Shown here one piece after another: positions 4,037 through 28,123 of a stretch of DNA of 64,000 nt (positions are counted from its first letter, which is position 1; each line of letters opens with the position of its first letter). This stretch comes from Deltaproteobacteria bacterium (GTDB lineage: Bacteria > Desulfobacterota > Binatia > Binatales > Binataceae), in contig JAKBMB010000032.1 of assembly GCA_021831785.1 (NCBI GenBank), forward strand, positions 1-64,000. Reading direction: 5' to 3'. The notes under the pieces are model-generated. The model was not told where the DNA came from and did no database searches. It was given only the letters and a program-made list of their open reading frames with translations. The position numbers and the translations under genes are program-made.

Positions 4037-4061
4037 AGGTGGACCTGATGATAAGTTCAGT

Positions 4062-4240: not shown

Positions 4241-4248
4241 GGGCGCCT

Positions 4249-4455: not shown

Positions 4456-4456
4456 G

Positions 4457-7600: not shown

Positions 7601-8049
7601 CCGCGCAGCTTCAGCTCGCGCAGCAGCAGCCCAGCCATAATGGTCTTGCCCGCCCCAGCATCGTCGGCGAGCAGGAACCGAACCCGCGCAAGCTTCAGAA
7701 GATAGTCGTAGACCGCTTCGAGCTGATGCGGCAGAGGATCGACGCGGGAAATCGAGAGGCCGAAGTAGGGATCGAACTCGTAGGCGATGCCGAGCGAGTG
7801 CGCCTGGATACCGAGCCGGAGCAGCTCGCAGTCGCCGGCGTACGAGCATCCCGCTCGTGCCACTTTGAGGCTCTGGATTTCAGCGCGGCTTAGCGGAACG
7901 CTTCGAAAGATGTTGGTCTGGATTCCAACCAACCCCAGCTCCCACGTGTCCGAATTGACCGGAGCAACGGTCACCACCCGCATCGGCTCGCTGAAGAGCG
8001 AACCCGACAGCACTTCGCCCGCGGCTATCGGCTGGTTATCGCTCGACAA
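4648..8049 (-). CDS. SNF2/DEAH superfamily 2 helicase with DUF3883-like C-terminus
   Basis: The 1133-residue protein contains a Q-like motif (PHQLEAV), Walker A DDAGAGKTIMAG (residues about 129-140), DEAH box VVIVDEAHRMSW (about 225-236), a LTATPHKG motif III, and C-terminal helicase motifs FTEFKDTLDYL, ATEAAGEGINL and QRMGRIHRYGQ. The end (LGYDITSL, then ELRLIEIKG) resembles DUF3883, a PD-(D/E)XK-like domain. Relatives occur in DISARM-type and related defence loci (DrmD-like); this exact subfamily cannot be fixed by eye. It is the first gene of the minus-strand cassette and overlaps hicA by four bases. Confidence 0.88.
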   Translation of the reverse strand: MSSDNQPIAAGEVLSGSLFSEPMRVVTVAPVNSDTWELGLVGIQTNIFRSVPLSRAEIQSLKVARAGCSYAGDCELLRLGIQAHSLGIAYEFDPYFGLSISRVDPLPHQLEAVYDYLLKLARVRFLLADDAGAGKTIMAGLLLRELKLRGLGQRTLIVCPANLTFQWQRELREKFDEQFIVLKGDAIREQFGINQWLQNRQVITSLDLAKRDTILPGLQQVHWDVVIVDEAHRMSWSPPARKTARYALGELLRDHCDHLLMLTATPHKGDPGNFSLFLQLLDEDAYADVKSIRQAIVQRSAPFYLRRTKEAMVYFPERQPDGSWKARKLFTKRDTRTADFTIDNEELRLYRDVTAFVKEQSRKAAAKGDDPRARAVGFLMALYQRRLASSAYAIRHSLENRARRLMENLKRAQEIALTAPRDLPTEEELEEMEEAERERLEGVLAAITVAQNPAQVREEIARLEQLAEQARNLEEAEAEAKLAKLRTVLREQGFFDNPTERLLIFTEFKDTLDYLVEKLTTWGFKVGFIHGGMRPGSRDEKGTRLYTEQQFREGAIQILVATEAAGEGINLQCCHILFNYDIPWNPNRLEQRMGRIHRYGQTSDCLIFNFVATNTVEGRILDKLLEKLDEIRKALDNDAVFNVVGEILPAAHIERVLREYYAGNLTADDLEDRLLRDVSEDHFRAICENALEGLASKRLNLRMLVERRALAQERRVVPETIARFVRETAPFVPLALKPLASLPHTFDPAATPPVLHRYESDPDWRLQPLANRYPRFSTERETAEKHNLEWVTPGHPLFEALRRHTLAEARPSLADGACFYSLDVTTPVRLDFYRARVVDGLGDIIHERMFAVEIDDSGSTQLRDQNALGNLTAAPVPQDLPAVAQAPEPRGWLNDRALTPFLEEIRAERVAEIERIARHVELSLTALLEKEDQLIGRLAEDVDRGVEGAPGNLKQAEDRHAALMARRERRRQELERQRSLTLQGVERIASALVLPHPDRDQPEIRNLHPDPETEAIAMRTAIEYEEAQGRTVTDIHEKNLGYDITSLDSRSGELRLIEIKGIAGADGTVALTPNEKRTAEDRRDCYWLYVVTRCKHPEGPKLMRITDPAQLEWDQIRKIDHYALKVAALGGAE

Positions 8050-8165
8050 GGCCCCGCCTCGCTTAACACCGTGAATCTAGCACAATTATCCATTTAGGTC
8101 GCTTCTCTAACCGCATCGGGCCGTTAAACGTGGACTGACCAACTCTCGTTAGTGGACCTGCGCTT

Positions 8166-8399
8166 CTACCCGGTGCGTCGGCGGCGGCGTTGCGCTCGCA
8201 TCGGGCGAATCAGCACCTCCGCCGGAATCCTGAAGCGCTCGTTGAGCCGACGGATCATCTCAAGCGAAAGCCGCCGCTTGCGGTGTATCACCTCGTAAAC
8301 CCGGCTCCGGCAGCCGATCACGCCCACAAGCGCCCGATGATCCAGTCCCTGCTGCTCAAGCCGGAACTTGATCGCCTCGATCGGGTCAGGCGCGTCCAT
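8166..8399 (-). CDS. HigA-like antitoxin, probably N-terminally truncated
   Basis: 77 residues: DPIEAIKFRLEQQGL, then a helix-turn-helix (VIGCRSRVYEVIHRKRRLSLEMIRRL) and FRIPAEVLIRP, the C-terminal layout of HigA/COG5499 antitoxins. In-frame sequence upstream to about 8477 continues the family pattern (GDRLDVLTTLVEAYEDKHFP) but has no start codon and meets a stop near 8519, so the gene seems to have lost its N-terminus. No HigB toxin is seen next to it. It lies between the defence cassette and the mobilizable element. Confidence 0.65.
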   Translation of the reverse strand: MDAPDPIEAIKFRLEQQGLDHRALVGVIGCRSRVYEVIHRKRRLSLEMIRRLNERFRIPAEVLIRPMRAQRRRRRTG

Positions 8400-8615
8400 C
8401 GGGAAATGCTTATCCTCGTAGGCCTCTACCAGCGTCGTCAGGACATCGAGGCGATCCCCTTCAGGCGCCCAAGGATGCCTTGACGGCCCTTTGCCCCTTT
8501 AGCAGCGGTTCGACAAGCCGCACAAGCGTGCTGCGCGCAAGCACCCGCGCCGCCCGAAGCATAGCATCGTTCCTAACGGGGGAGCAGGGTAACGCGCTTC
8601 ACTGAAGCATGCGAA

Positions 8616-10094
8616 TTACCGAAGTGTTTCTTCCCAAGTGAAGCCGAGCGGGCGGCGGCCACCGGGTAAGCGCAGCGCAAGCGCGCGCTCGATATCGTCC
8701 GGGGAGGGCGCGAGAGTCGCGCTGCCGGCAATGCTCATCCCGGCGCGTAGCGCGGCGCGCCCGAGCGCGTCGAGGAGCGCCAGGCGCAGAAGACGGGGCG
8801 AAAGATTGATAAGCCTATCGAGCACGCAACCGGGCAGCTCGGCGGCAAAGGCACTTCCCCAAGGCTCGGTTGCGAGCAGGTCGCGGTAGACCGAGCGCGC
8901 AACCGCCGCCATCTGCGCCCGCGTCGGCGCAGCCACGGAAAGCACCCTAAAGCGGCTCAAGATAGGCTCGGGAATCCGGGCGGTATCGTTGGCGGCCGCC
9001 ACCCATACGATATGCGAGGCGTCAAGCTCAAGCGCCACGTACTCGTCGATGAAGCGCTTTGCCGTATGCGGTTCGAGCAGGGAGTAGAGCGGTCCATAGG
9101 GGTCGTAGCGCGCCTCCGAGGACATCTTGTCCACCTCGTCGAGCAGCATCACCGGGTTGGCGCTCCGGCCTCTGACCAGCGCCTGGAAGATGCGCCCCGG
9201 TTTGGCTTCGTGCCACTGCGAGTCGGCGCCGGAGAGCACGAAGCTCGCCGTGGTGGTGTTGCAGGCAATCACGTGAAACTCGGCGCCGAGCAGCTCTGCC
9301 AGTTCCTTGACGAAGCGGGTCTTGCCGATGCCGGGCGCTCCGGTGAGCAACAGCGGTAAAAGACGCAGCGCCGGGCGCGCAGCGAGCAGACACAGGGCGA
9401 GCTGGCAGTGGAGATACGCGATGACCTCGGCAAAGTTGGGAAACTGCGCCTCAAGCCCGCGCAGGCGGGAGAGCATCGCCGGTTCCACCTGCGCCAGCCC
9501 GCGCTCAAAGCCGGACTCCCTTAATTGTTCGAGCACTGCCACCTGCCGTCGATAGCCAGCCTTCTCGGCAGTCTTGAGCCGTAGCTCGACAGCCTCTCGG
9601 TCGACAATCGCAACCTGCACCGGATCGTCGCGGATACTGTCCATATCTGCGAGGTCATCGCCTTGAGAACGCTCCGCCTGCGCCCGGGCTTGAGCTTCTT
9701 GCGTTGTTGGAGAGAGCGAATCGCACGTCTTGAGTGTACCTTCAGCACCGATACGCTTGCGGGCGTCGATACCGGCACGCTGGTAGAGCGCCTTGGCTAG
9801 GTCGGTATAGCCGAGAAAGCCCACAAGCTCCGCCACGCCGGCGCAAACCTCGACCTGACGGCGGACCCGTCGTAGCGCGCGCAGGTCCTCGGCGACCACC
9901 ACCCAGCGGTCGTCAGTAAGCTGGTAGAGCCTAAGCCGCGTCCAGGTCGGAGCAGCCCTGAAAGGTAAATCGTCGTCATCCGGGCAAAGTGTCTGCTCGA
10001 AAACCTCGGCGATGAGCCGGCCGCAGAAGACCAGGTCGGGCTCGTCCTGGCGCCTTACCACAAGCTCCTCGAAGCCGTTCACAGCGCGCTCCAA
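8616..10094 (-). CDS. Lon-like AAA ATPase without protease domain
   Basis: 492 residues. The AAA module has Walker A TGAPGIGKTR (about 251-260), Walker B VMLLDEVDKM (about 315-324), sensor WVAAANDT and arginine-finger region ILSRFRV. DPYGPLYSLLEPHTA is typical of Lon-family ATPases. The protein ends soon after the lid domain, so the Ser-Lys protease domain of Lon is absent. The N-terminal 200 residues contain no domain I recognise. It overlaps the end of the nuclease-like gene upstream by 16 bases, so the two are probably co-translated. Function unknown; a replication, packaging or defence role is possible. Confidence 0.75.
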   Translation of the reverse strand: MERAVNGFEELVVRRQDEPDLVFCGRLIAEVFEQTLCPDDDDLPFRAAPTWTRLRLYQLTDDRWVVVAEDLRALRRVRRQVEVCAGVAELVGFLGYTDLAKALYQRAGIDARKRIGAEGTLKTCDSLSPTTQEAQARAQAERSQGDDLADMDSIRDDPVQVAIVDREAVELRLKTAEKAGYRRQVAVLEQLRESGFERGLAQVEPAMLSRLRGLEAQFPNFAEVIAYLHCQLALCLLAARPALRLLPLLLTGAPGIGKTRFVKELAELLGAEFHVIACNTTTASFVLSGADSQWHEAKPGRIFQALVRGRSANPVMLLDEVDKMSSEARYDPYGPLYSLLEPHTAKRFIDEYVALELDASHIVWVAAANDTARIPEPILSRFRVLSVAAPTRAQMAAVARSVYRDLLATEPWGSAFAAELPGCVLDRLINLSPRLLRLALLDALGRAALRAGMSIAGSATLAPSPDDIERALALRLPGGRRPLGFTWEETLR

Positions 10095-10633
10095 GTTGAG
10101 TTCTCGGAGAAAAGCGCTGATGCGGCAAAGTGCTCCGCAAGCGGCGTGAACAGCTCCTTACGCCAGTAGCAGACCGGAACGCAGCGGTGCTGCCCGTTGA
10201 CCCAGGAAGGCGCCGGGCGCTCTTCTTGTTGCCCCTTGAGCACCGAAACCTCGGCGGCGACCCAGTCCTCGAGCCGATTGAGCGTTGAATCGCGCCCGCC
10301 GGCGCGCGAGTGGTCGTGGATGGTGTAGTAGACGGGCTGGCCGGTGAGCTCGGCGAACTGCACCAGCGCCTTAAAGCGGTAGCGCTCAAGCCCGAAGGAG
10401 CCGTAGCGGGTGGGCGCCTTGTGCTTGACCTCGTGATGCTCGCCGAGAGAACTCCAAAGCGTGATGTCGGGCAGCAGCAGGTAGCGGCCATTGGGTCCGC
10501 CGGCGCACGCGGCGCTGCTGCGGCCTAGCTGATGGGCGGTGAAGTAACGGTGGAAGCCTGCCGCCAGCTCGCAGAACTTATTCTCCCAGTACGCCCCCAG
10601 CCCGCGGTCTGCTTCCAGGTCTACGCAATGCAT
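10079..10633 (-). CDS. Putative PD-(D/E)XK-like nuclease
   Basis: I chose the ATG at 10633 because a strong AAGGAGGAG ribosome site lies just upstream; the open frame itself runs back to 10789. The 184-residue product shows LLPDITLW followed by HHEVKHKAPTRYG, matching the D...ExK spacing of PD-(D/E)XK nucleases, then a YYTIHDHSRAGG segment. This could be a resolvase-like or defence nuclease. It overlaps the following Lon-like ATPase gene by 16 bases. No family was recognised with certainty. Confidence 0.55.
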   Translation of the reverse strand: MHCVDLEADRGLGAYWENKFCELAAGFHRYFTAHQLGRSSAACAGGPNGRYLLLPDITLWSSLGEHHEVKHKAPTRYGSFGLERYRFKALVQFAELTGQPVYYTIHDHSRAGGRDSTLNRLEDWVAAEVSVLKGQQEERPAPSWVNGQHRCVPVCYWRKELFTPLAEHFAASALFSENSTWSAL

Positions 10634-10790
10634 GCCATCTCCTCCTTGTTGGTGGCTTGCCCGCGCGCAACCTGCTATCGTCAAGGCGTCTGGCACTTGC
10701 GCGAACGCAGCTTCGCGCGGGGTTATCGGCCCCGCTGGCGGCGCCAACCGCCGGCGGGGCCTTGCTTTGTGGCCTGCTCTATACCTCATA

Positions 10791-10831
10791 AGTATATACT
10801 ACAAGGTGGGCTCGTTAATACCTTCCGGTAT
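10791..10831. promoter_or_regulatory. Palindromic, AT-rich divergent control region
   Basis: Between the nuclease gene (minus) and the zinc-ribbon gene (plus) is an AT-rich patch. It contains the perfect palindrome AGTATATACT (10791-10800) and the inverted repeat ATACC-ttcc-GGTAT (10818-10831). These are operator-like, but no regulator is assigned. Confidence 0.35.
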
Positions 10832-10836
10832 ATGAC

Positions 10837-11082
10837 TTGTACTATTATTGCCGCGATGGTATCTCTTTAGCCGTGGCAAGAGTGCGGTTATGGGGCTACC
10901 GGTGCGAAAGGTGCGGACACGAGTGGCTGCCCCGCGAAAAGGGACAGGAGCCGCGAGTTTGTCCTAAATGTAAGAGCCCTTATTGGAACGTGCCACGCAA
11001 GACACCCGCAAAAGGCGAGCGCCGCGCGAAAACCGCCGGCCAAAGAAGCGGTGGGCTCGCGCTGCCGAACGCGAAGCACTGA
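10837..11082 (+). CDS. Small zinc-ribbon protein
   Basis: The protein (81 residues from a TTG start; a GTG at 10873 is an alternative) contains YRCERCGHEW...PRVCPKCKSPYWNVP, two CxxC knuckles forming a zinc ribbon, followed by a basic tail. Similar small proteins are common on mobile elements and near toxin-antitoxin or resolvase genes. It is the only plus-strand gene in the element and faces the relaxase gene end to end. Confidence 0.6.
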   Translation: MYYYCRDGISLAVARVRLWGYRCERCGHEWLPREKGQEPRVCPKCKSPYWNVPRKTPAKGERRAKTAGQRSGGLALPNAKH

Positions 11083-11097
11083 TTGAGCCCGGTGTTC

Positions 11098-13257
11098 TTA
11101 CGTATCGGATGGTCCGGGCGCGTGGAGTAGCGGTTGGTCGGCAGCGGCGCCTGGTTCGTCTATGGCGCCCTGCGCGCTTAGCAGCTTGGCGCGGTGCTGC
11201 TCGGCCCAGGCGCGCTCTTCGGGTGTGGGCGTGTAGCCGGAGAGCGCGATTCCGAGGATGACCGCTTCGCGCCACGCGGTGCGGCGAAACTCCTCCGAGC
11301 CATGCACCTCGACACTGCCCCAGCGGGCAACGGCAAGCCTAAGCGCAAAGCGTATCGCCTCGGGCTGAGGGTCGTTTAGCGCAAGAAAGTTGCGGTGATC
11401 GGTAATCGCCGTGCGCTCGGGTTCATTCGCCCATACCCAGTGGTTTTGAACCTTGATAAAGCGCGGGTCCTCGGGCTCTGGCGCATGTGCTGCACGTACA
11501 CCGGATGCCGGCACGATGATGCTGCCGCGGGTCACGATGCCGAGCAGCTCGTTCCAGTCCGTGGCTTCCTGCGGGCGATGGCGGACGGCATCGGGAACGG
11601 CTCTGATTAGTCGGCGTGCTTGCCGCTCCCCAGCCTCGTCCGCGTTCTGAGCGGCGATTATCTTAACACCTTGGGCAGCCATCCGCTGCGCCAACTCAAT
11701 TGCTGCGCCTGAGTCGCCGGCGGTGCCTACGACCCAGAGACCTGGTCTATCGTAGAGCGCGAAGTAGGAGAGGGCTTCTATGGCGCTCTCGCATACGGCA
11801 AGCTCGCAACACTCCTCACCCCGTCCTACCCGGAACACACCCTTGCTCCCGCGTACGCCGTGAAACGGCTCCTTGCCGATTCCGCGCAGCTCGACACCCA
11901 CCGGCTCGCCGTCAAGGTCGTTCGCGTCAACGAGTCTAAAGGCGGCATTGACGTACTTGCCGTAGCGGGCGGCAAAGACGGCGCCGCGCGACAAGGCTGT
12001 GCTGACGAGCTCCTCGGGAATACAGCGCTCGCCGACCAGGTAGCCGCGCACCAAAGCCTCGCCCTTGAGGTAAGGCTTGGGCAGCATCGAGGGCTCGGGC
12101 AGCCTTGCAGCATCGCGCGCCAGGCGCTCGACCCGGTAAGCCAAATTGGCGCGGGCGCTGGAGACGGCAAGCTCCTCGCCAAAGCGGGCTGCGAGCCAGG
12201 CTATCGCGCGCCTAAAGTCAAAGCCCGCAAGGTGCATCACGAGGTCGATAGCGCCTGCGCCGCCGATACCCTGGTCGTGGTTGTACCACTGGGCGAGATT
12301 CTCGCGGTTGGTTGAGACACGCCCGGCCGGGGTTCTCCAGTTAAACCTCGGGTCCTTGGGATCGGGGATGCAGCCCAGAGCGATAAAGACTTCACTGAGC
12401 GGTATCTCGCGCAAAAGGTCGGCACGCCGGCGAAGCTCGTCGAGTTTTCCTTCGCGCTGGGCAAGGCGCTTTCTTACCGCGTCTAGCTCGCGCGCCTTGG
12501 CCAGCGCCGAGCGAAGCGCCATGGCTTGTGCCCGAGCGCCCTCGCGAAAGCCGGCTTCATAGGCGCGTTTGGCTATTCGCTCGGCATAAGCCCTAGGTGA
12601 AAGCCGCTCAGTGATAGTGGGCTCGGGCACCGGCGGCGGCGCGCCGGATACCGCAGGTATCGGAATGACGGCGCTAAGCTCCCGGTTGACTCTCGTGTAG
12701 TACTGCCGTATCGGCTCGTGGCGCGCCTTCGAGCCCGCAACTCCGCGTCTTAGCCCCAGCGGCGCCATCGCTCTCGCGTATTCGGTCTGGAGCTCACGGA
12801 GCTTGCTCGGACTGAAGAGCTCGCGTGCGTTTAGATGACCGCGCTCATCCAGCGGCACCACCAGCGCCTGGATGTGCGGCGTGCTCTCATCCAGATGCAG
12901 GCTTGCGTGGGCGAGGTTCCCGCCGTAGCGCTCTTTTAGCCACTTGACGTTGGTAGCTACCCAGGCATCGAGGCGCGCATCATCCTAGGTGCCGGCGGCG
13001 CTGGGGTCATGCGGGCGGAAGTACTCGGGGCTTGCGGTAAGCAGGAACTCGACTGCCACGGTGGCATCCCTGCGCCGCTTCTCGGGCAGAAGCGCCATCA
13101 CGTCCGCCTCGGGGTCAAGTCCAACCAGCGCGCGCACCTCTCTTGCGGGATCGGCGTTGGGTGTCGGACGGGTACGGGCGAGATGCCCGGCAACCGCCGC
13201 AAGCCCGCGCGGCCCGCTCATCTTGACCTTCTCGACCCGCAGAATCGCGTACGCCAT
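11098..13257 (-). pseudogene. MobV-family relaxase with Toprim-like domain, split by an in-frame TAG
   Basis: From MAYAILRVEKVK (start 13257) the frame reads 90 codons, hits TAG at 12985-12987, and then continues in the same frame for 628 more codons. The sequence just after the stop (LDAWVATNVKWLKERYGG) and the relaxase metal motif HLDESTPHI lie past the TAG. A start at 12861 would miss them. Later parts contain a coiled region, a primase/DUF3991-like segment (PAGRVSTNRENLAQWYNHDQ) and a Toprim-like stretch (ELAVCESAIEAL, QNADEAGE). The stop replaces a position where Trp (TGG) would fit, so one G-to-A change explains it. It is broken unless TAG is read through. Confidence 0.8.
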
Positions 13258-13305
13258 CTAAACCCCTGCCCTGAGCCGTGTCGAAAGTTCGCCCTTGTCC
13301 GAAGC

Positions 13306-13442
13306 TTCCTTTCCGTAGCAGCGGTCGACCCGGGGATCATTTCTCGGCAGGGCATTACCTATTACACATCGCCCCGTGCGGGGCGATGTTGCGCAGCTCG
13401 GGGCGTAGCCCCGAACCCCGCCTTGCCTGCTACGGAAAGGAA
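13306..13442. other. Candidate origin of transfer (nested inverted repeats)
   Basis: A 16-base perfect inverted repeat (TTCCTTTCCGTAGCAG at 13306-13321, its complement at 13427-13442) encloses two hairpins: ACATCGCCCC-GTGC-GGGGCGATGT at 13366-13389 and TCGGGGC-GTA-GCCCCGA at 13398-13414. It lies directly upstream of the MobV relaxase gene, the usual place for an oriT. The nick site is not identified. Confidence 0.55.
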
Positions 13443-13453
13443 TGGGCATGTCG

Positions 13454-13756
13454 CTACTGCGCCTGAGCTGCCTGCGCGCCGGGCTTCCCGGCATGATGGC
13501 TCTGCGCCTTGCCTAAGCCCTCGCCATTGCCAGAAAGCCGCGCCTTCTCCGCGCGCAGCTCCTTGAGCGCCTCAAGCGTCTGCTGCCCAAGCCATCGCGC
13601 TGCCGCCTCCTCCGGCGCCCAGCGCCTGTCAAGCTCGCGCGCAAGCTTCGATGCCTCCTTGTAGGCGTCATAGACGTTGACCGGGACTTTGAGCTTAAGC
13701 GTCATCGTCACGCTCTTGCTCGGTTCGTTGGCCAAAAGTTCACTGCTCATCTTCAT
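13454..13756 (-). CDS. Small mobilisation-type accessory protein
   Basis: 100 residues (the second ATG, at 13750, has the better spacing to an AAAGGAG site). TMTLKLKVPVNVYDAYKEASKLAREL suggests a short ribbon followed by helices, as in ribbon-helix-helix or relaxosome accessory proteins, with a charged helix and a disordered tail. It sits next to the candidate oriT and divides it from the excisionase-like gene. The function is inferred from position. Confidence 0.5.
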   Translation of the reverse strand: MKMSSELLANEPSKSVTMTLKLKVPVNVYDAYKEASKLARELDRRWAPEEAAARWLGQQTLEALKELRAEKARLSGNGEGLGKAQSHHAGKPGAQAAQAQ

Positions 13757-13865
13757 GTCTCCTTTCGTTGATTTACTGGACCTCTGCGGTCGGGGTATGA
13801 AATTTCCCTCACCGCTGACAACCGTGAAGTTTTTCCTCAGGGCGGACCGCGTGTTCTCGCCTGCG

Positions 13866-14318
13866 TCATGGCAGATTCACCGTCGGCACCTGGTAAGCCT
13901 GCCGCCGCGAGCGAGAATCTGCGGTGGAGGAATGAGGCCGTGTGGGGTCTTCGACACTTCGTGCCGCAGACGCCGTGGTCAGTGCGGGCTCGGGACGGTT
14001 CCATAATGAAGCGCTCTCGCGCGGACGACCGCGCCGAGGGGTAATCGGGGTGTTGGACTCGGCCGCGGCGGCGAGCTTGGCTGCCCATCGATGCAAAGAC
14101 TCGGCAGGAAAGACCCAGCGCCGGCCAAGGCGCACCGCAGGAGGAAGCGCGCGCCCAGCCTCGCCCCGCTCAAGCGCGCGCAGCACGCCTAGGTGAGAGC
14201 GCCCGAGCAGACGGGCAACCTCACTTGCGCTAAAGAGCAGACGCCCGGAAGGCAGCGCCGCAGCTTGCAGCGCAAAGGCGCTGGACGGCTCGAAGACCGG
14301 GCGCAGCGGCGCGCTCAT
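13866..14318 (-). CDS. Excisionase-like helix-turn-helix protein
   Basis: 150 residues. LLFSASEVARLLGRSHLGVLRALERGE followed by VRLGRRWVFPAESLHRWA is a winged/MerR-like helix of the kind in excisionases and AlpA regulators. The last 60 residues are low-complexity and probably unstructured. Its start overlaps the stop of the membrane protein gene by four bases. In an integrase-bearing element it may direct excision or control mobilisation genes. Confidence 0.6.
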   Translation of the reverse strand: MSAPLRPVFEPSSAFALQAAALPSGRLLFSASEVARLLGRSHLGVLRALERGEAGRALPPAVRLGRRWVFPAESLHRWAAKLAAAAESNTPITPRRGRPRESASLWNRPEPALTTASAARSVEDPTRPHSSTADSRSRRQAYQVPTVNLP

Positions 14319-14872
14319 ACCCGCGCCTGCGGCTTAAGCGCCGCAGCCTCCTTAGGCGAACCGGCTAATTGTCGTGGAAAACAGAAACACGGCGACGGCG
14401 GGTCGCCGTCGGTACTGCCACCCTCGGATGAACCGCCAGAACTACTCGAGCGCCGCTGAGGGGAACCCCCTCCGCAACGGGAGCGCCGATGGGCGCGCGA
14501 GGTGCCCTTGCGATGGGCGACGCCCGCAACCACACGCGTTGCAAGCGGGCTGCGCGGTGCGCGAAGCGCGCGCGAGCGTCGCGCCGGTCTCCTTAAGACC
14601 CGGCTAAACATAGCGCGCACCGGCTGCGCGAGGCTGTCGGTTACGCGCTCTTCCCCGTAAAGCAGAATACCTACGCTCTGGCCGCCATCCTTCATGACCG
14701 CGTCAATTAGCCGCCCAACCGCCGCCATCACGCCCTCCGCCAGCGCCAGCGCGATACCGACGCCGAGCACAAACCACGGCCCCCGCCAGAGCCAGGCTAA
14801 GCCGAGAAGCAAACACAGGCACGCCCACGTCTGTAGAGGGCTTCTCCTCGAGCTGCCGCAACCGCTAATCAT
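14315..14872 (-). CDS. Small membrane protein of the mobile element, unknown function
   Basis: 185 residues. Two hydrophobic segments (WACLCLLLGLAWLW and FVLGVGIALALAEGVMAAVG, residues about 16-52) are followed by a long Arg/Ser-rich, probably disordered tail. No family recognised. The overlap with the excisionase-like gene supports co-translation. The tail could be partly non-native sequence. Confidence 0.45.
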   Translation of the reverse strand: MISGCGSSRRSPLQTWACLCLLLGLAWLWRGPWFVLGVGIALALAEGVMAAVGRLIDAVMKDGGQSVGILLYGEERVTDSLAQPVRAMFSRVLRRPARRSRALRAPRSPLATRVVAGVAHRKGTSRAHRRSRCGGGSPQRRSSSSGGSSEGGSTDGDPPSPCFCFPRQLAGSPKEAAALKPQARV

Positions 14873-14890
14873 GATGCCAATTTACACTAT

Positions 14891-14907
14891 TTGGCCACAG
14901 CGGCCAA
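14891..14907. other. Short inverted repeat downstream of the integrase gene
   Basis: TTGGCC-ACAGC-GGCCAA, 6-base stem, lies between the integrase stop and the membrane-protein start. It may be a weak terminator or operator. Confidence 0.25.
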
Positions 14908-14948
14908 GGGAGCCTTCGATGTCTTTTCGTCTGTCGTACCCCTGCCGC

Positions 14949-15950
14949 CTAACCTAGCTGCCGAGCGATATCTTCAGCCTGCAGATGCGTATATCTGCGC
15001 AACATAGCCCAGGTCTTGTGCCCAGTGATGCTGGCCACGGTCTCGATGCCCAGCCCCCGCTCGAAAAGCCGCGAGGTCGCTTCATGGCGCAGATCGTGGA
15101 AATGCAGGTCCTCGATGCCGGCTTTGCGGCAGGCCTGGGCAAAGGCGTGACTATAACCTGCCGGGCCGAAGACGAAGCCGTCCAAACGGCGCGGCAGGCT
15201 TTGTAAAATCTCCACCGCCCGGGTCGAAAGCGGTACGTCGCGCGCAAGCCCATTCTTGGTCAGTGGCAGATGAGCCACGCGCCTGGCCAGATCCACGTAC
15301 TGCCAGCGCAACGCTGCGATCTCGCCCTGGCGCATCGCCGTCTCAAGCGCAAACTCAACCACCTTGCTCAGCCGCACGTCGCAGGCTTCAAGCAGCCGCT
15401 GCTCCTCGCCGGGCTTAAGCCTGCGCTCGCGCCCCGGCGCCGGTTTCGGCCGGCGCACCCCCTTCATAGGGTTATGCAGCCCCTCCATACCCCACTCGAT
15501 GCGAGCAACCGTGAATAGATGAGAGAGCAGCGCCAGATAGAGCCGGATCCGGTTCGGGCCCAGACCCTCGCCTTCCAGTTCGGCGATCAGCTTGGCGATG
15601 TCCGCGCCTCGGATGTAGGCCAGCGCCCGGTCCTTGAGCGGATGCCGTTTTAACGCATTGGCGATATAGCGCTCCTTCTCGCCCCAGCGCTTGCGGACTG
15701 AAACCTCCGCGACATAGCGGTCGAGCGCTTCTGCCAGGCTCGTGCGCTCGGCGTCGCCCAGGTTGACGAAGCGTCCCTCGGCCATCCGGCCTTCGACCTG
15801 GGCCGCCCAGCGCTCAGCCTGGGGGCGGGTATCGAAGCTTGCCGAGAGCGGCTCAAAGCCGCGCCTGCGCACCTGCGCCTGCCAGTTCTTGCCCCGCCGT
15901 CGTATCGTTGCCACGCCCTTCAGTGTGACAAAATTGTGACAAAATGGCAA
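14949..15950 (-). CDS. int: Site-specific tyrosine integrase
   Basis: 333 residues. It has an N-terminal arm-binding/SAM-like region (SLAEALDRYVAEV...) and a catalytic domain carrying Arg in ALETAMRQGEIAALRW, Lys in LPLTKNGLA, His-x-x-Arg in HDLRHEATSRLFE, His in TGHKTW and the nucleophilic Tyr in LRRYTHL. All catalytic residues are present, so it is probably active. A start at GVATIRRRGKNW, a few codons in, is also possible. The gene begins about 70 bases inside the 3' end of the tRNA-Leu gene, the standard position for an integrase that uses a tRNA as attachment site. Confidence 0.92.
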   Translation of the reverse strand: MPFCHNFVTLKGVATIRRRGKNWQAQVRRRGFEPLSASFDTRPQAERWAAQVEGRMAEGRFVNLGDAERTSLAEALDRYVAEVSVRKRWGEKERYIANALKRHPLKDRALAYIRGADIAKLIAELEGEGLGPNRIRLYLALLSHLFTVARIEWGMEGLHNPMKGVRRPKPAPGRERRLKPGEEQRLLEACDVRLSKVVEFALETAMRQGEIAALRWQYVDLARRVAHLPLTKNGLARDVPLSTRAVEILQSLPRRLDGFVFGPAGYSHAFAQACRKAGIEDLHFHDLRHEATSRLFERGLGIETVASITGHKTWAMLRRYTHLQAEDIARQLG

Positions 15951-16019
15951 GAAACCGGTTCGTGAGGCTGCCGGGCGCGCCGCCTATCCAGAAAAAATCT
16001 CGATTTTACGGGCTATTAT

Positions 16020-16105
16020 TGGTGCCGAGGGCGGGACTCGAACCCGCATGAGCTTGCGCTCGGAGGATTTTGAGTCCTCTGCGTCTGCCGTTTCGCCACC
16101 TCGGC
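16020..16105 (-). tRNA. tRNA-Leu (anticodon CAA)
   Basis: The minus strand from 16105 folds as a class II tRNA: acceptor GCCGAGG pairing with CCTCGGC, anticodon stem GAGGA/TCCTC with loop CTCAAAA (anticodon CAA), a long variable arm (CGAGCGCAAGCTCA), T-loop GGTTCGAGTCC, and an encoded CCA end. Its 3' end is the probable attachment site of the neighbouring integrase. Confidence 0.95.
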
Positions 16106-20640: not shown

Positions 20641-23052
20641 TCACGGCGCGAGCGGTGTGCCGCGATTGCCGAAGGGGAGCGGCACCTTGAGCGCAAGGTA
20701 CACGGCGAGGCGCGGCAGGTACGCCGGAGCAAAAACTCCGAGCCCGGTGCCGTTTTGCAGAAGATTGGTGCGGTCGAAGACGTTGATGACCATAAGACGC
20801 GCCACGGACTGACCCACTTCGGGCAGCATCAGGCTGTGCGCCACGGCGGCGTCAACCTGCCAGGTAGGAGGAAATTCTTGAGTATTGGCGAAGCCGCCCC
20901 AGAGGCCGCTGCCGTAAAAGCTATCGGCGGTGAAAAGCCAGCTTCCCCACCGATAGCCCACCTGCCCCGAAGAGGTGTAGACCTGCGCCTGGCTGCGGGG
21001 GATGTAATGGCCGGCGACATAGGCGAGCTGATCGGGCGGGAAGTTGTACTGCTGGGTGATGAGGTTGTTGGCTTGCGCGATAAGGTAGGTGAAGCTGGCG
21101 TTGAGAAAAACGCCGTGGAAGCGGTAACTGACGCTGCTGTCCGCGCCCCAGGTGCGGCCGGATTGGTAATTGTACGGCGAGATTATCGGCACCGCGCCGA
21201 ACTGTCCGGCGCCCAGCGCGTCGCTGGCGAGGATAAAGTAGGCGTCTTCCGAAAGGGTCAGATTTTTCAGCGGCTGGTTGACCACCCCCGCGTCGAAGTA
21301 ATTGTCGCGTTCGGCGTAGATATTGAAGTTGGTCGGCACGGTGATCGCCTGCGTGGTGCCCGCGAACGCCTCGGCGCTGCGCGTCGTGATCGCCTCGAAC
21401 TCCGGAGTGGCGAAGTAGCGGGCGTAGCCGGCGTGAAACACGGTGCCGTCTTGCGGAGTATAGGCGAGGTTGACCCGCGGGCTTACCTGGCTTTCGTTCA
21501 CGAACGACTCCATCGCATCCCATCGCAAACCGTAGCTCAGCGTAAATTTTTTGTTGATTTGCCAGAGGTCCTGAACGTAGACGCCGAAAAGCCAGTTAAT
21601 CTTGTTAAGGTTGTCTACCACGTTGATTGGGATCGTGCTGGTCTGCTGCCCTTCGGAGTTGGCCGGAAACACCAGTGAGCTGTTGTCAAGCTCGATCCCA
21701 TACTCGCCGATATAAAAGCCGGTCTTGACGGCATGCGCTTCGTTGACCTGATAGGTTGCGTCGCCCTGCAGCGTGTTGGCGAAGTCGCTATGAAACTCGT
21801 TGGAGGCAACGCCCTGGTAGAGCAGATCGCCGGCGTTATCGGGGCTGTAGGCGAGCGTCACGTAATGGGTCGCGTAAGCCAGGTTATAGCTGAGCTTGGG
21901 CGACAGAGCGCCCTGCACGGAGAACGCCGCGAAATATTCTTGCTGGAAAAGCGTGTTGTTGAGTCCGATCGAGGGATGGTCGGCCGGGTTCACGCCCTGC
22001 AGCTCGTAGGCGGGCGTTTGTCCGGGCCAGTTGGGGAACTCGGCGCTGCTGACCCAAGTGCCGGCGATCAGGCTTAGATGGACCGCCGGGCTTACCGTGT
22101 ACGAAAGATAGCCGAAGCCTTGGCCCTGGTTCTGCAGGTTGTGAATTGGATTAGGCCCTGGGGTAGCTTGGCTGAAGGCCAAATTGTCGTGCTGATAGAA
22201 GCCGGTGAGGTAATAGCTCAGATTTCCTCTACATCCTCCCAGCTCGAAGTTTGGCATGAAGGTGTCGCGCTGACCGCCGTACATCTCGGCGTTGCCGCCT
22301 TCCTCCGCGCATCCGTCCTTGGTCTTGATGTCAATGACGCCTGAGGTGCGAAAGCCGTACTCGGGCGCGAGAATCCCGGTCTGGAGGCTCACGCTGTCAA
22401 AAAAACGCGGCGTGAGAAACTGGCCGAACCCCGAGTTGGTATCAAACGGCAGCACGACCCCGTTTATCACGTACTGAAAATTCGCTTGCGCGCCGCGGAT
22501 ATGGAGCCGGCCGTCCACGCTCTGGCTCACGCCGGGCATCTGGGTGAGCAGCGACTCAAGCGTGGTGTCCTGGCCCTGGGGAAGATTGTCGATATCCTGC
22601 TTGGTGAAGGTGTAGGCGCTGTTGCCGGTCGGCGACAAGCGGTTGGGCGCGGAGCTAAGCCTGTTTGCGCTGACGCCCACGCTCAGCGCCTGTTCAGACT
22701 CCATCGATAACGTCAGAGGTTTGAGGCGCGCTCCGCGCGTGACCGTGAAGATTACCGTCGCGGGCTTAAAGCCGCTCTTTTCGGCAATGATGGCGTAGGC
22801 GCCGGGAGCTACGTCAGTAAAGGAAAAAGCGCCGTCGGCTGCGCTCCGAGCGCGTCGAACGGGAAGCCGCGAGTCGCGCCCTTTGAGCGTCAATTTCGCA
22901 TTGCCGAGCGGCCGTCGCAAGGCGTCGTTGACCACACCCTGTATCGCCGCGCCGCGCGCGCTTGCGCTGCGCTCCTGCGCCGTGGCGACACTCGGCAGGC
23001 CGAGCGCCAGCACTATAAGGAGCAAGAGACGGTTCCATTGCGCCCCCATCAT
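20641..23052 (-). CDS. TonB-dependent outer-membrane receptor with carboxypeptidase-regulatory-like N-terminus
   Basis: 803 residues: signal peptide (about 1-26, ending SVATAQ), a carboxypeptidase-regulatory-like beta-sandwich (GVVNDALRRPLGNAKLTLKG...), a plug domain (LESLLTQMPGV...LHIRGAQANFQYVINGV) and a beta-barrel to the C-terminus. It imports a large ligand energised by TonB. It is divergent from the giant G8/CEMIP-like secreted protein across a 490-base gap, so the two may share control or substrate; that link is inference. Confidence 0.88.
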   Translation of the reverse strand: MMGAQWNRLLLLIVLALGLPSVATAQERSASARGAAIQGVVNDALRRPLGNAKLTLKGRDSRLPVRRARSAADGAFSFTDVAPGAYAIIAEKSGFKPATVIFTVTRGARLKPLTLSMESEQALSVGVSANRLSSAPNRLSPTGNSAYTFTKQDIDNLPQGQDTTLESLLTQMPGVSQSVDGRLHIRGAQANFQYVINGVVLPFDTNSGFGQFLTPRFFDSVSLQTGILAPEYGFRTSGVIDIKTKDGCAEEGGNAEMYGGQRDTFMPNFELGGCRGNLSYYLTGFYQHDNLAFSQATPGPNPIHNLQNQGQGFGYLSYTVSPAVHLSLIAGTWVSSAEFPNWPGQTPAYELQGVNPADHPSIGLNNTLFQQEYFAAFSVQGALSPKLSYNLAYATHYVTLAYSPDNAGDLLYQGVASNEFHSDFANTLQGDATYQVNEAHAVKTGFYIGEYGIELDNSSLVFPANSEGQQTSTIPINVVDNLNKINWLFGVYVQDLWQINKKFTLSYGLRWDAMESFVNESQVSPRVNLAYTPQDGTVFHAGYARYFATPEFEAITTRSAEAFAGTTQAITVPTNFNIYAERDNYFDAGVVNQPLKNLTLSEDAYFILASDALGAGQFGAVPIISPYNYQSGRTWGADSSVSYRFHGVFLNASFTYLIAQANNLITQQYNFPPDQLAYVAGHYIPRSQAQVYTSSGQVGYRWGSWLFTADSFYGSGLWGGFANTQEFPPTWQVDAAVAHSLMLPEVGQSVARLMVINVFDRTNLLQNGTGLGVFAPAYLPRLAVYLALKVPLPFGNRGTPLAP

Positions 23053-23236
23053 CCGACTTGCGTCGCGGCGCGCCTTTGCTCAAAACAAACCTCCGCGGAC
23101 GGCTCCCCAAGCCGTATTTCCTGTGGAAGCCGGCAGCGCCCGCGAGCGCATTTTATGAGTTAACAGACCCCGGCCGGCGAGACATCGCGCGAGACCGGCG
23201 AGCATTCCCGATTTGCGCGGGAAATCTTCCCGACTT

Positions 23237-23258
23237 GCGGCAGGGACGCCCCTGCCGC
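23237..23258. other. GC-rich hairpin in the divergent intergenic region
   Basis: GCGGCAGGG-acgc-CCCTGCCGC forms a 9-base stem within the 23053-23544 gap. It may be a dispersed palindrome or a transcription-related hairpin. Apart from this and the promoter candidate, the gap holds no gene. Confidence 0.35.
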
Positions 23259-23381
23259 CAAGGCCCTACATTTTGGCAGAACCTGCGGTGTGGAACTTAA
23301 GCATAATGCGCTCGTCCATTCCGCGCCGAACTAGTTCACTGCGAGTGCCAGGCCGACTTAATGATCGAGATAGCGTGAAGC

Positions 23382-23410
23382 TTGACATAACTACCATATT
23401 TAACTATGTT
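23382..23410 (+). promoter_or_regulatory. Sigma-70-like promoter for the G8/CEMIP-like gene
   Basis: TTGACA (23382-23387), a 17-base spacer and TATGTT (23405-23410) in a locally AT-rich stretch upstream of the large plus-strand gene. A small hairpin (CGGCTTCAAGCCG) precedes its AAGGAGG ribosome site at 23531-23537. Confidence 0.5.
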
Positions 23411-23544
23411 TGCAAAGTTTTGCTTTTTATTAGGAAAGGTTGCGTGTAATTGAGGGCCGTTCATCCAGTTTGGTTGGCGCACCTCACTGTCGTCCGCAGT
23501 CCCTCTAAGTCCTCGGCTTCAAGCCGAAAAAAGGAGGAGTGAAG

Positions 23545-26500
23545 GTGCTAAGTCACACCCCGAGGCTGGGCTTAACTTCCCAATCACGCGAGATTTTCTT
23601 TCGGCTCGCTACGGCATTCGTCGTCACGGCCGCTTTACTTGTTGCCCACACTACGCGGTCGGAGGCAATTGAGTGCACGAACGGTGCGCTCAAGCCGCCG
23701 CCGGTTCCGCAGGACTTGGTTGTCCGTAGCGGCACATGCACCGTCGACGCCGGGACCTATCGTTTCAGCAACGTCAACATCTACGGCGGGGGCAAGCTTT
23801 GGTTCGAGAACAACAAGCGGGCGAAGATAGATTTCTACGCCGCCAACATCGTGGTCGAGAACAACGGCAGCCTGGTCGCCGGAGTGGACGAAGACGGCAC
23901 CACCATTCGCCCGATTGGCGCCGACGGCGGCTACGTCAAGATCCATCTGTATGGGGCGCCGCCGACGGGTCTCATCGGCACCGGCGTATTGTGTAAAACG
24001 CCGACCGGTGACCAGCAAAAAGCTCCGTGCGGCATACCCGATGGGATCTGGGACAAAAGCGGCCAGAAGATAAAGCTTGACAACGGCGTTATGGATTACT
24101 GGTACCAGTATAGGCCGCTGTCCCTGGATGGCGGCGACCCAGACGCGTTCTTCGGCTACAAAGTCCTGGCCGTTTCGTACGGAGGCACGTTGCAGCTTTT
24201 CGGCAAGAAGGGCGCCGTTTCCGCAGAGGAAGAGCTCAACCAGACCTTCAAACCCAAGGACTCCGCGCGAAGCTGGCGCAGGCTTGCCGGGACGATTCCC
24301 CCCACTGCTAGAAAGCTCAAGGTCGACCGGCCAGACCTCATCGAAAACAACTGGCAAGTGGATGACCACATCGTGGTCACCACGACCGACTACCTCGCTG
24401 GACACTCCGAGGAGTTGATCATCACGGCCATTGACAGGAATACAAAGGAGATAACGTTTACAACGGTTTGCTACAAGGAGGGTCGCTGCGGAAAGGACGG
24501 AGTCCAGTGGACTCACAACGGAGAGAAGTATCCGCTTAGCAGGCTTCCTAGCCGCTTGGGTATCATCAAGACCGCCGCGGAGACCAGAGCCGCCGTCGGC
24601 CTGCTCACCCGCAGTATCGTGATCGACTCCCGTGGCAACAGGTATCTGGACCCCTTCTACCCGCCAGATTATCCGCCCAATCCTCACTACGCCTTTGGCG
24701 GTCATGTCCTCGCCCGCCAAGGTTTCCTGAAGTTTCAAGTGTCGGGAGTCGAATTCCGTCAGTTGGGGCAAGGGGGACGTCTGGGCCACTATCCCGTTCA
24801 CTTCCACATGGCCCGCCAGACGCCGCCGGACACGTTCGTGAAAGATTCGTCGATCAACGAGTCGATGACCCGATGGATCGTCGTCCACGCAACGCAGGGT
24901 GTCACGCTTGCGCGCAACGTAGGCTATCTATCGATCGGCCACGGTTTTTATCTCGAAGACGCGGTCGAGACCAACAATAGGCTCTACTCCAACCTGGGAA
25001 TCTTCGCGCGCGCTGCGATTGCCAACCCGCAGAACCCGCGCAACATACCCGGTCTCCTCGCTGATTCCAGCAGCACCTCCAACATGAGTTCCCCTCGATA
25101 CGGCAGCGATATCAGCATGCCCACGGCCTTCTGGATCACCAACGGTTGGAACGATTTCCAGGGCAACATGGCGGCGGGGGCTGGGATGTGCGGCGTGTGC
25201 TATTGGCAATTATCGGCCGCCATCAGCGGCCCCGCGCGAGGGGAGACCTGGGAATCATATGCCGGCGAGCAGACCCGAGCGGAAGGGCGCGTAGGCACGT
25301 CGCCCTTGATGCGATTCGACGGCAACTATTGCACCTCTGCGATGACCTCGTTCCAGACCGTGGGCTATACGCAAAATTGCCCCGGGATCCCATCCGAAGT
25401 GCCGCAGGTATCGAATCCCGCCGCTCCTCCCCAAGGCACCAGTGACTGTGGCCCCGGTAAGAAGTATCCGATCTGCCCGGATGACTACTACCCGCAGATT
25501 GATACGGGCCAATTAAGCCAGGCCACGAAATGCCCCGACACCGGTAAGTGCGACCAGGTCAATGCACCACTCTGTCAGAATGCTGACGAGAGAAACTGTG
25601 TGCCTACCGTGATCAATGACTACACCACAAGCTTTAATTACTCCAAGTACGACTTCGCCGCGGTATGGCTCAGGCGTCGCTGGCACCTGGTCAGCAACAG
25701 CTTCATTTCCGACGTGCAGAATGCGGGCCTCACTTTCATCTCGGGGGGCGACTACACCCATTCTTCAGCCATCAACGGACTCTGGGAGTTGGCGCTGAAG
25801 ACCGTCTTCGTCGGCGAGACCCAACCTCGCGACAAGGCTCATGCCTACGCCTCGGTGCTGAGCCCCTTCAACGACGATACCGGGCTTCGCTGCGACGACC
25901 CCGGGGCGCAGGGCAACCACTGCACCTCGAAAGACAACGGCTTCACTCTCGGAGGATTTACGGCTTTTGGCGTCAGTCAGCACATGTTCAACATCTACGA
26001 CGGTCCGGCCAGTGAAGATTCAAACGCCTATCTCGATATTAAAAGGTACGACCTCGGTACGAACGCCAACAAATCGGTTTACAAACTTATCAACGGCATC
26101 CCGAAGGCCCTAGAGCCCACCAACGATGTCCCAGAAGGGGATTGCTACATCCAAAACGCGGCCATTGCTTGGAAGCAGCCGAACGGCTTTTACTATCCCC
26201 CGACCTTCCACTCGCGAAACCTCTTCTTCGACAACGTCGATATTCGTCACTACGTGATCGATCCGCATTGGTTTCATGGGACTTACGTAACCAATCCCAC
26301 AGAGGCTGAAAAGCGTTACTGCACCCAGAATGACGCAATATTCAACAACTTCAGCGCGATAGATCGGCAAACCGAATTGACCGACGATGACGGCTCGCTT
26401 ACCGGCTATGCAGATACCATCTCGGTCAATGAGGATTCATTCTTTGCCGCACCGATTGACGGAATCCAATGCTCATCGGATAACGCGACGCCCGAAGGCG

Positions 26501-27516
26501 GCACCGCCCTGACCAGCCCTTACGGCACGCCACAGACCGGTTACGTCACAAGCGTAGTCTATCCAGAGTGCGCAGAAGTAGGGAGCAGCAACAGTTGTAG
26601 CGACCTCCCCTGGGACAGCGAGTGCAGCAACGAGCACTGTTTCGGCGTCCCGCTTTATCGAGAATACGTAACCGGGTCGGAAAACAAGACTCAACCACCC
26701 CTTCCTGAATTCATCAGAATGGCAGGAATGAACATTTACCAGCGCGAGACCATGTTAGTTAACCATGGGCACTACTACATTGACACCACCGCCAGCGAGG
26801 CACAGCAAGAGTCATGGACTCGCAAGAACATCTTCAGGGGCGGGCAGACTTACGACGTTTTCTTAGTCTATGCCACGGAGAACACCGAACAGACCTATGA
26901 TATTTATGTTGGAACGGGATGTAGCACGGATCTGGTGAAGTCGATACGAGTAAACGTTGCCAACGCTCCGTTCGTAGTCACCCGCGGCGCGGGCCCGGAC
27001 GGAAAAACGCTTTCCGCAGTATGCAAAAGAAGCAACCCCAAAGAGCAGAGCGACGACCTCCTGGAGGTCACCCTCAACCTGAGCGCCTACAAAAGCGAAT
27101 TCGACCAAGCCCATCATGACCTGTGTCTGCCCCAGACGGTGTGTCGCTTCGAGGATGGCAAATGCATCGCACAACCGGCAACATCTGAAGGCTTCGGCGG
27201 CCCCGGGATGCAACAAGCCGCCTTTAACGTCGCACCCTTTGAGCCTCTGACCCCTGCGGAGCGGCATCTTACCTGCAGTTACGCCGGCAAGGATGTGGAT
27301 TGCCCGACGGGCGGCTGCGTCGGCTTCTCCTTCACGCTGCCCGCGGCCTTCGTGGCCGAGGATCAGACGTTGATGAAGAATCTGCCAATGTCTGGGCTCA
27401 CGAGTTGCTTCCCGAAGGACGCGAACTGGAACTTTACCCCGGTAGAAGCCGACAAGGAGCTTGCCGGAGAATGTTACCGAGCGCCCATGACAGCCGATTT
27501 CTGCAGCACTTTATAA
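23545..27516 (+). CDS. Large secreted G8/CEMIP-like beta-helix protein
   Basis: I chose the GTG at 23545, seven bases after AAGGAGG; a GTG at 23539 is too close to it. The roughly 1323-residue product has a signal peptide (TAFVVTAALLVAHTTRSEA) and then a G8-like region. LAGTIPPTARKLKVDRP, WQVDDHIVVTTTDY and a right-handed beta-helix segment follow, with LGHYPVHFHMARQ near residue 415, RWIVVHATQGVTLARNVGY and IGHGFYLED. This pattern matches animal CEMIP/TMEM2 (hyaluronan-degrading) and fibrocystin-L relatives. The second half is Cys-rich and unrecognised. Probably exported and acting on a polysaccharide; substrate unknown. Confidence 0.75.
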   Translation: MLSHTPRLGLTSQSREIFFRLATAFVVTAALLVAHTTRSEAIECTNGALKPPPVPQDLVVRSGTCTVDAGTYRFSNVNIYGGGKLWFENNKRAKIDFYAANIVVENNGSLVAGVDEDGTTIRPIGADGGYVKIHLYGAPPTGLIGTGVLCKTPTGDQQKAPCGIPDGIWDKSGQKIKLDNGVMDYWYQYRPLSLDGGDPDAFFGYKVLAVSYGGTLQLFGKKGAVSAEEELNQTFKPKDSARSWRRLAGTIPPTARKLKVDRPDLIENNWQVDDHIVVTTTDYLAGHSEELIITAIDRNTKEITFTTVCYKEGRCGKDGVQWTHNGEKYPLSRLPSRLGIIKTAAETRAAVGLLTRSIVIDSRGNRYLDPFYPPDYPPNPHYAFGGHVLARQGFLKFQVSGVEFRQLGQGGRLGHYPVHFHMARQTPPDTFVKDSSINESMTRWIVVHATQGVTLARNVGYLSIGHGFYLEDAVETNNRLYSNLGIFARAAIANPQNPRNIPGLLADSSSTSNMSSPRYGSDISMPTAFWITNGWNDFQGNMAAGAGMCGVCYWQLSAAISGPARGETWESYAGEQTRAEGRVGTSPLMRFDGNYCTSAMTSFQTVGYTQNCPGIPSEVPQVSNPAAPPQGTSDCGPGKKYPICPDDYYPQIDTGQLSQATKCPDTGKCDQVNAPLCQNADERNCVPTVINDYTTSFNYSKYDFAAVWLRRRWHLVSNSFISDVQNAGLTFISGGDYTHSSAINGLWELALKTVFVGETQPRDKAHAYASVLSPFNDDTGLRCDDPGAQGNHCTSKDNGFTLGGFTAFGVSQHMFNIYDGPASEDSNAYLDIKRYDLGTNANKSVYKLINGIPKALEPTNDVPEGDCYIQNAAIAWKQPNGFYYPPTFHSRNLFFDNVDIRHYVIDPHWFHGTYVTNPTEAEKRYCTQNDAIFNNFSAIDRQTELTDDDGSLTGYADTISVNEDSFFAAPIDGIQCSSDNATPEGGTALTSPYGTPQTGYVTSVVYPECAEVGSSNSCSDLPWDSECSNEHCFGVPLYREYVTGSENKTQPPLPEFIRMAGMNIYQRETMLVNHGHYYIDTTASEAQQESWTRKNIFRGGQTYDVFLVYATENTEQTYDIYVGTGCSTDLVKSIRVNVANAPFVVTRGAGPDGKTLSAVCKRSNPKEQSDDLLEVTLNLSAYKSEFDQAHHDLCLPQTVCRFEDGKCIAQPATSEGFGGPGMQQAAFNVAPFEPLTPAERHLTCSYAGKDVDCPTGGCVGFSFTLPAAFVAEDQTLMKNLPMSGLTSCFPKDANWNFTPVEADKELAGECYRAPMTADFCSTL

Positions 27517-27580: not shown

Positions 27581-28123
27581 TTGACACTCGCCGCTAATTC
27601 TTACGTCGAGCGGCGGACCGCGGGCTTGGCTGCCGGCTTCCACGCGCCGTTCGGCGAACTACCCGGGTTCGACGAGACCATCTCCCTCAATCACGCCTCC
27701 GGCAGCTACGACATAATCGTCGTTGGCAACAGCACCGCGGGATCGATTGCCGCCGCGAAGCTTCGACTAGCCAGCCGGGGAAGAAAGCGTATCTTGATTG
27801 TCGAGGCCGGCGGTCCCACTAGCGGCGCGAGCCATCCCGATCTGAATCCCGACAACATCGATGAAATCTGCCAGTATGTCACCGGGCCGGCGCCGATCGA
27901 CGGCATGTACTTCAACCGGCTCATCATCAACCATTTCGGCCGCACGGCGGCGCCGAGCGACGGCGCCAAGCGCGCCGGCCCACAATCACTTATCGTGCGC
28001 GGCACCACCAATGTCGCCGTGGTTGACGCCTCGTTGATTCCGACGATCGTTCTGGCCCATCCGGTCTGCACCATCATGGCGGCCGCCGGCCGCGCGGGCG
28101 ATATCCTGGCGGACCGCCGCTGA
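27581..28123 (+). pseudogene. GMC oxidoreductase remnant with internal deletion
   Basis: The 180-codon frame (TTG start) has an N-terminal FAD-binding segment YDIIVVGNSTAGSIAAAK...ILIVEAGG and then jumps to the C-terminal GMC motif NVAVVDASLIPT...TIMAAAGRAGDILA. Intact GMC enzymes (choline dehydrogenase family) are 500-600 residues, so most of the middle, including the substrate domain, is gone. Ribosome site weak. Probably non-functional. Confidence 0.7.

Follow-up and report, generated by a model that had tools for sequence, protein, structure and literature searches.

A bacterial CEMIP/TMEM2-type protein without lectin-like domain 1, and a His/Glu site jointly lost in three of its homologues

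The window analyzed here, a 64,000-nucleotide stretch of contig JAKBMB010000032.1 from a genome of the family Binataceae (GCA_021831785.1), encodes a large protein, P0001 (23545..27516, forward (+) strand, 1323 amino acids), that we assign to the CEMIP/TMEM2 superfamily and in which no counterpart of the lectin-like domain 1 of human TMEM2 was found. Five residues of its predicted beta-helix (H419, H421, H448, T450, and E471) are kept in human TMEM2 and were lost together in three bacterial homologues, which points to one functional site. We give about an even chance to the proposal that P0001 is a metal-dependent, extracellular beta-helix enzyme that probably acts on a polysaccharide, a reading in which we infer the metal, the catalysis, and the substrate class.

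The P0001 reading frame starts at a GTG codon at 23545, with an alternative GTG at 23539, and runs to the stop codon ending at 27516. Comparison with the orthologue in a second genome of the same genus (G001; 79% identity) gave a ratio of nonsynonymous to synonymous substitution rates (dN/dS) of 0.24 overall and of 0.19-0.27 across five parts of the protein, the C-terminal residues 1040-1323 having the value of 0.27; P0001 is thus not a chance open reading frame (ORF), and its length has been maintained under purifying selection. Pfam identified a G8 domain (residues 52-137; 23698..23955, +; E = 3e-8, 34 bits against a cut-off of 22.9, covering profile positions 8-83 of 124), which forms the first beta-helix turns in TMEM2, and a CEMIP_beta-hel (PF24606) domain (residues 384-600; 24694..25344, +; E = 1.6e-48, 165.7 bits against a cut-off of 27.3). 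No other Pfam family was matched in P0001 at E values up to 1, and a scan against NCBIfam gave no match. When all PDB sequences were searched with phmmer (E up to 1), human TMEM2 (CEMIP2; 8c6i) was the sole match to P0001 (E = 1.1e-26). The CEMIP/TMEM2 homology and G8 domain claimed in the original prediction, made from the sequence alone, were thereby borne out, and P0001 is placed in the superfamily by its matches to both PF24606 and G8. Its beta-helix fold is predicted from the homology to 8c6i.

A profile built from 22 full-length bacterial homologues matched 8c6i with E = 1.9e-42. The match covered the core and the stretch preceding it (chain 339-609, 136.9 bits), with weaker pieces at G8 (chain 56-127, 15.6 bits), chain 131-157 (2.6 bits), a later coil (-1.9 bits), and a domain X motif (DDDGSLTG, residues 947-954, aligned with TMEM2 DIDGSVTG; -2.1 bits), and all of the pieces were colinear, following the same order in the bacterial homologues and in TMEM2. 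In P0001 the alignments placed the match to the stretch just before the TMEM2 core (W..GD.I.V.tTDY...E), a stretch that we take to be the small beta-sandwich of TMEM2, at residues 238-345 (24256..24579, +). Domain X was clear only in a Croceibacterium plasmid protein (859 aa), which matched 8c6i with E = 9.6e-94 over chain 53-167 and 338-913, domain X included and the lectin insert skipped. G8 and CEMIP_beta-hel were both matched in 22 of the 22 aligned homologues, and beyond these two only RTX was found, once (Pfam, E up to 0.01). The lectin-like domain 1 was searched for and not found, as the profile has 36 positions (between 216 and 253) where TMEM2 has 181 residues and no such domain appeared in the Pfam scans; P0001 therefore falls outside the animal CEMIP/TMEM2 hyaluronidase subfamily.

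Conservation and joint loss of the His/Glu site

The proposed active or metal site, delineated by conservation and joint loss, consists of H419-x-H421 in the YPVHFH motif (24799..24807, +), H448-x-T450 (24886..24894, +), and E471 in GHGFYLED (24955..24957, +). In P0001 the two His motifs read LGHYPVHFHM (residues 413-422) and IGHGFYLED (residues 464-472), and R348, Y416, H419, H421, H448, T450, H466, E471, E475, and N483 are identical in the aligned 8c6i. To follow these positions we aligned 57 non-redundant sequences, 53 of which were usable (L110 and L068 were dropped as partial, and L111 and L112 as badly aligned). H419, H421, H448, and E471 were each present in 50 of the 53 rows, and the three exceptions (L074, L036, and L108) each lacked all four of them together with T450. 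L074 comes from another family of the phylum, while L036 and L108 come from two genomes of the window's family; the three are 24-42% identical to one another and 45-48% identical to their nearest intact relatives. Among 32 columns with a conservation of 94% or more across the remaining 50 rows, those lost in all three were 419, 421, 448, 450, and 471; column 416 was lost in two, columns 466, 530, and 554 were each lost in one, and the remaining 23 were intact in L074, L036, and L108. Because the three rows had been picked for the loss of H419, that residue is itself no test, and the test lies in the agreement of the others. On the tree, three changes of the site label were needed, at least two of them forced by well-supported branches. 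Since the five residues are lost jointly while 23 of the 32 columns stay intact, the set marks, on sequence evidence, one functional site; such a pattern is expected when a single active site is lost. The original prediction had pointed to a conserved His cluster: its core (H419, H421, and H448) held, whereas H415 of LGHYPVHFHM was present in 32 of the 53 rows and H466 lay off the loss pattern.

H419/H421 and H448/T450 form i, i+2 pairs beside hydrophobic or small residues, an alternation that fits outward strand positions, and the sequence spacing places E471 on the next coil. Human TMEM2 and the Croceibacterium plasmid relative both retain all five residues, and counting along the chain gave His550, His552, His585, Thr587, and Glu608 as the TMEM2 equivalents (the total of 1301 is reached with a 23-residue tag and residues 106-1383, and Cys554, described as unpaired in PMC10206443, falls as expected). 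As a separate observation, two genes lie downstream of L074 (G277, 2742-10187): one matches CarboxypepD_reg and Cytochrome_C7 above cut-off, and the other contains haem-binding CxxCH motifs recognized by eye. This setting suggests a different role for the altered protein.

Proposed function and rival explanations

A set of H-x-H, a further His, and a Glu is a classic group of divalent-metal ligands, as in the cupins. In the enzyme that we propose, a right-handed beta-helix protein, secreted or surface-exposed and of a compact form without lectin-like domain 1, would hold a divalent metal with ligands from three successive coils, H419 and H421 from the first, H448 (with T450) from the second, and E471 from the third, all on one face of the helix and presumably close in space. 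By analogy, this placement would resemble the active sites of other beta-helix polysaccharide enzymes, which also lie on one face, and the activity would be the cleavage or modification of an extracellular polymer that comes from bacteria or from the environment. Outside the cell, the Cys-rich C-terminal part may confer stability or bind the substrate.

P0001 is probably secreted, as read by eye from a hydrophobic N-terminal stretch followed by SEA-IEC; this N-terminal region, a probable Sec signal peptide, spans residues 1-41 (...FVVTAALLVAHTTRSEA; 23545..23667, +). An extracellular setting is further indicated by lipobox-like N-termini seen by eye in four homologues (L034, L035, L037, and L074), by RTX repeats on a C-terminal extension in 1 of the 22 full-length homologues (L046), and by 27 conserved cysteines, given that 27 of the 36 Cys of P0001 were kept in at least 21 of those 22. 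The Cys-rich C-terminal part (residues 871-1323; 26155..27513, +) could be aligned in the 22 full-length homologues of alignment A1. Within it, residues 1040-1323 contained no recognized domain: a profile built from 21 homologues, without L062, found no PDB match at E up to 10, P0001 itself matched no Pfam family at E up to 10, and at that same Pfam threshold the 21 homologues gave RTX in one and seven families with one member each (best E = 0.0098). The earlier description of a Cys-rich C-terminal half without a recognized domain was accordingly right as far as Pfam is concerned, yet the region is conserved, as its retained cysteines demonstrate.

Several observations weigh against the metal-dependent enzyme. 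The joint-loss test was post hoc, its rows having been picked by loss of H419; the branching of the clade that contains L036 and L108 allows a single shared loss; and the tree program marks the placement of L074 and L108, both on long branches, as unsure. T450 is also variable in two rows outside these three, and the dropped, badly aligned L112 has N at 448 with H419, H421, and E471 kept. AlphaFold2 models were uninformative, with a mean pLDDT of 31.2 for residues 42-1241 (7-row alignment) and 27.3 for residues 325-615 (6 rows), probably because the alignments were shallow. A calcium need has been reported for TMEM2 while the His-rich set is atypical of calcium sites, so that this need would require a separate calcium site. 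In the gene neighbourhoods that were read (up to three genes on each side of a homologue, by eye, with a simple gene caller that may miss genes) no polysaccharide-utilization locus was recognized, and no report that assigns a metal, a substrate, or an activity to any of the bacterial proteins was found in the literature searched.

A non-catalytic role also stands as an alternative. P0001 could be a surface or matrix protein (an adhesin, an S-layer-like protein, or a glycan-binding protein) in which the beta-helix serves as a scaffold, as would suit a long beta-helix with a Cys-rich tail; moreover, the three homologues without the His/Glu site keep the surrounding conserved columns, so the fold is valuable without the site, and beta-propeller proteins lie directly beside 8 of the 26 window-clade genes read. 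Four residues that are present in 50 of 53 rows and that disappear together exceed what a scaffold needs, however, and we consider this explanation unlikely.

It is quite unlikely that P0001 is a true depolymerase of hyaluronan (or chondroitin) that feeds on or passes through animal or bacterial glycosaminoglycan. The CEMIP/TMEM2 homology and the beta-helix residues conserved from bacteria to human speak for such an enzyme, and the window's own genome contains a Glyco_hydro_88 match on a 600-aa frame (33.3 bits against a cut-off of 26.6; a second match, at 20.9 bits, fell below it), but that match is weak and no lyase, sulfatase, or uronate genes were recognized among the neighbours read by eye. 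The TMEM2 literature is itself divided: one group reports intrinsic hyaluronidase activity (PMC10474455), whereas two others found none (PMC10206443, PMC10276149). Substitutions reported to abolish the activity (R265C, D273N, and D286N) all lie in lectin-like domain 1, the domain missing here, and the location of the TMEM2 active site is described as an open question (PMC10206443). A glycosaminoglycan gene cluster was likewise looked for among the neighbours, and none was recognized. Given the absent domain, the lack of such a cluster, and the disputed activity of TMEM2, hyaluronidase function is not to be transferred to P0001, contrary to what the comparison with a hyaluronan-degrading family had implied. 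The accompanying caution that no bacterial function has been established is in line with the titles found in our literature searches, where no bacterial CEMIP-like protein was named among the matches listed (subscription papers and preprints lay outside their scope).

Very unlikely, finally, is an envelope protein that binds or delivers metal in the manner of NosD, a copper protein with a beta-helix. In its favour are the H-x-H/H/E set, a weak NosD match in L032 (E = 0.0006; 19.8 bits, below the cut-off of 23.6), CusA/CzcA metal efflux genes near the Planctomyces plasmid relative, and a cation P-type ATPase near the Croceibacterium one. Against it, no metal genes were recognized by eye beside the window gene or its close relatives, and a match to NosD of this kind could come from any beta-helix protein.

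Returning to the metal-dependent enzyme, we tentatively extend it to a wider idea, which is possible and falls clearly short of an even chance: the H-x-H/H-x-T/E set would be a metal-dependent catalytic centre ancestral to the entire CEMIP/TMEM2 superfamily, derived from lectin-less bacterial enzymes, to which animals added lectin domains that aim it at hyaluronan. If so, this would be new metal-enzyme chemistry on a beta-helix, a fold on which we know of no chemistry of this kind. A wrong or missing metal could then also help to explain the dispute over TMEM2, whose reported activity is calcium-dependent (PMC10474455, PMC10276149): the protein found inactive had been purified with a HisTrap column, and one Ni ion, at an unstated place, is present in its crystal (PMC10206443), while the active preparation came from cobalt resin (PMC10474455). 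Against a metal explanation, the authors of PMC10474455 blame substrate preparation for the discrepancy, and they report activity in membrane fractions as well and used concentrated culture supernatants, in both cases without cobalt resin. The naturally altered members point to five residues for mutation in TMEM2 or CEMIP. Should the site be catalytic, it would offer a target for CEMIP inhibitors and define an uncharacterized extracellular enzyme family in environmental bacteria; should it not be, the bacterial proteins would serve as simple models for the role of the fold.

Genomic setting and phylogenetic range

The window's own genome has one PF24606 match. With P0001 as the query, 25 of 57 genomes (its own included) gave a match; PF24606 was found in 37 of 148 genomes of the window's class, 26 of them in the window's family, and in 9 of 395 genomes of a phylum-wide sample, 8 of these above cut-off. 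Among 14 control genomes, only that of Deinobacterium chartae contained the family. The named relatives were those of three Thiocapsa (43% identity) and that of Methylocella silvestris, which is split over two contigs (54-55%); they were found with a single-protein query, which recovers close relatives only, and this range is thus a lower bound. In the 53-row tree the window protein and its G001 orthologue grouped with Methylocella at a support of 100/100, a placement that hints at gene transfer across distant lineages. Viral or phage origin gained no support, as no relative was found in viral contigs (searched with the protein and with the alignment) or in phages. CEMIP-like remnants were also observed: one on contig 8 of the window's own genome (L063, 7717-8594; residues 20-138 and 1095-1276, mutually out of frame) and another in G001 (L041, 8627-9293; residues 968-1089 and 1228-1320).

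More distant relatives, annotated as G8 domain-containing proteins, occur on plasmids of Croceibacterium, Planctomyces, Vitreoscilla, Antarctobacter, and Leisingera, the last two being partial matches only, to the Croceibacterium protein. The Croceibacterium atlanticum plasmid (NZ_CP011453.2; L123) encodes two such proteins (12943-15522 and 20821-23538), the first of which is the TMEM2-colinear one, and between them lie a TonB receptor, a MarR regulator, and two DUF6152 genes.

Upstream of P0001 and divergent from it is a TonB-dependent receptor with an N-terminal CarboxypepD_reg domain (20641..23052, reverse (-) strand; Pfam), followed by a gene that by eye is amidase-like; both the divergent arrangement and the gene order are kept in G001. 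Among window-clade genes no common neighbour family was seen except Vgb/NHL beta-propeller proteins, which stood beside L044, L048, L051, L053, L058, L059, L060, and L061 in varied orientation (Pfam was run on three of the eight); the eight cases are not independent, several coming from close genera. A Vgb_lyase search of 17 genomes found 1-6 matching places in each of 15 and none in the window genome or G001. The beta-propeller proteins are possible functional partners; as an obligate partner the family was rejected as a general explanation, in view of its limited occurrence, varied orientation, and absence from these two genomes.

Just after P0001, an ORF at 27581-28123 (+) joins an N-terminal FAD motif that by eye resembles GMC oxidoreductases to the very end of GMC_oxred_C, with the middle missing, and two stretches about 80% identical to it lie downstream of the G001 orthologue. 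This ORF is a decayed gene. A conserved GMC oxidoreductase partner was rejected, because only the end of GMC_oxred_C matches and the broken trace is shared only with G001 in the DNA compared.

Elsewhere in the window, the region 1-16105 (-) looks like an integrated defence island. A phage-type integrase (14952-15950) lies directly beside tRNA-Leu (16020-16105), and further on the region holds an Hma-like defence set: an HmaA-like helicase (4651-8049, E = 2.6e-170) and, truncated where the window begins, a frame (1-1878) that matches HmaB (E = 5.4e-47), in addition to DUF1156 and IS200-like transposase matches.

Comparison with human TMEM2 and other known systems

Human TMEM2 shares with P0001 the G8 domain, the CEMIP beta-helix, and the YPVHFH, H-x-T, and GH-x4-E motifs, and the order of these elements is identical. 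The two differ in that TMEM2 has lectin-like domain 1 (R265/D273/D286) inserted after the first helix turns, which P0001 lacks, while the long Cys-rich C-terminal part of P0001 does not match the second TMEM2 lectin. CEMIP (KIAA1199) presumably resembles P0001 in the same way, a likeness that we take from papers and from general knowledge of the family. Chondroitinase B (PL6) and other beta-helix polysaccharide lyases have a right-handed parallel beta-helix like that of TMEM2, and in chondroitinase B calcium is held by two Glu, one of which is conserved in TMEM2 (PMC10206443); no chains of these enzymes were among the PDB matches of P0001 or of the 22-homologue profile. Another close known kind is the bacterial G8 domain-containing protein of RefSeq, with both PF24606 and PF10162 present in the three plasmid relatives scanned. 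These three are shorter (859, 689, and 1029 aa) and lie outside the window clade, whose members share the conserved Cys-rich C-terminal part. The lectin-less bacterial form, a kind that RefSeq already names, reduces the family to its core.

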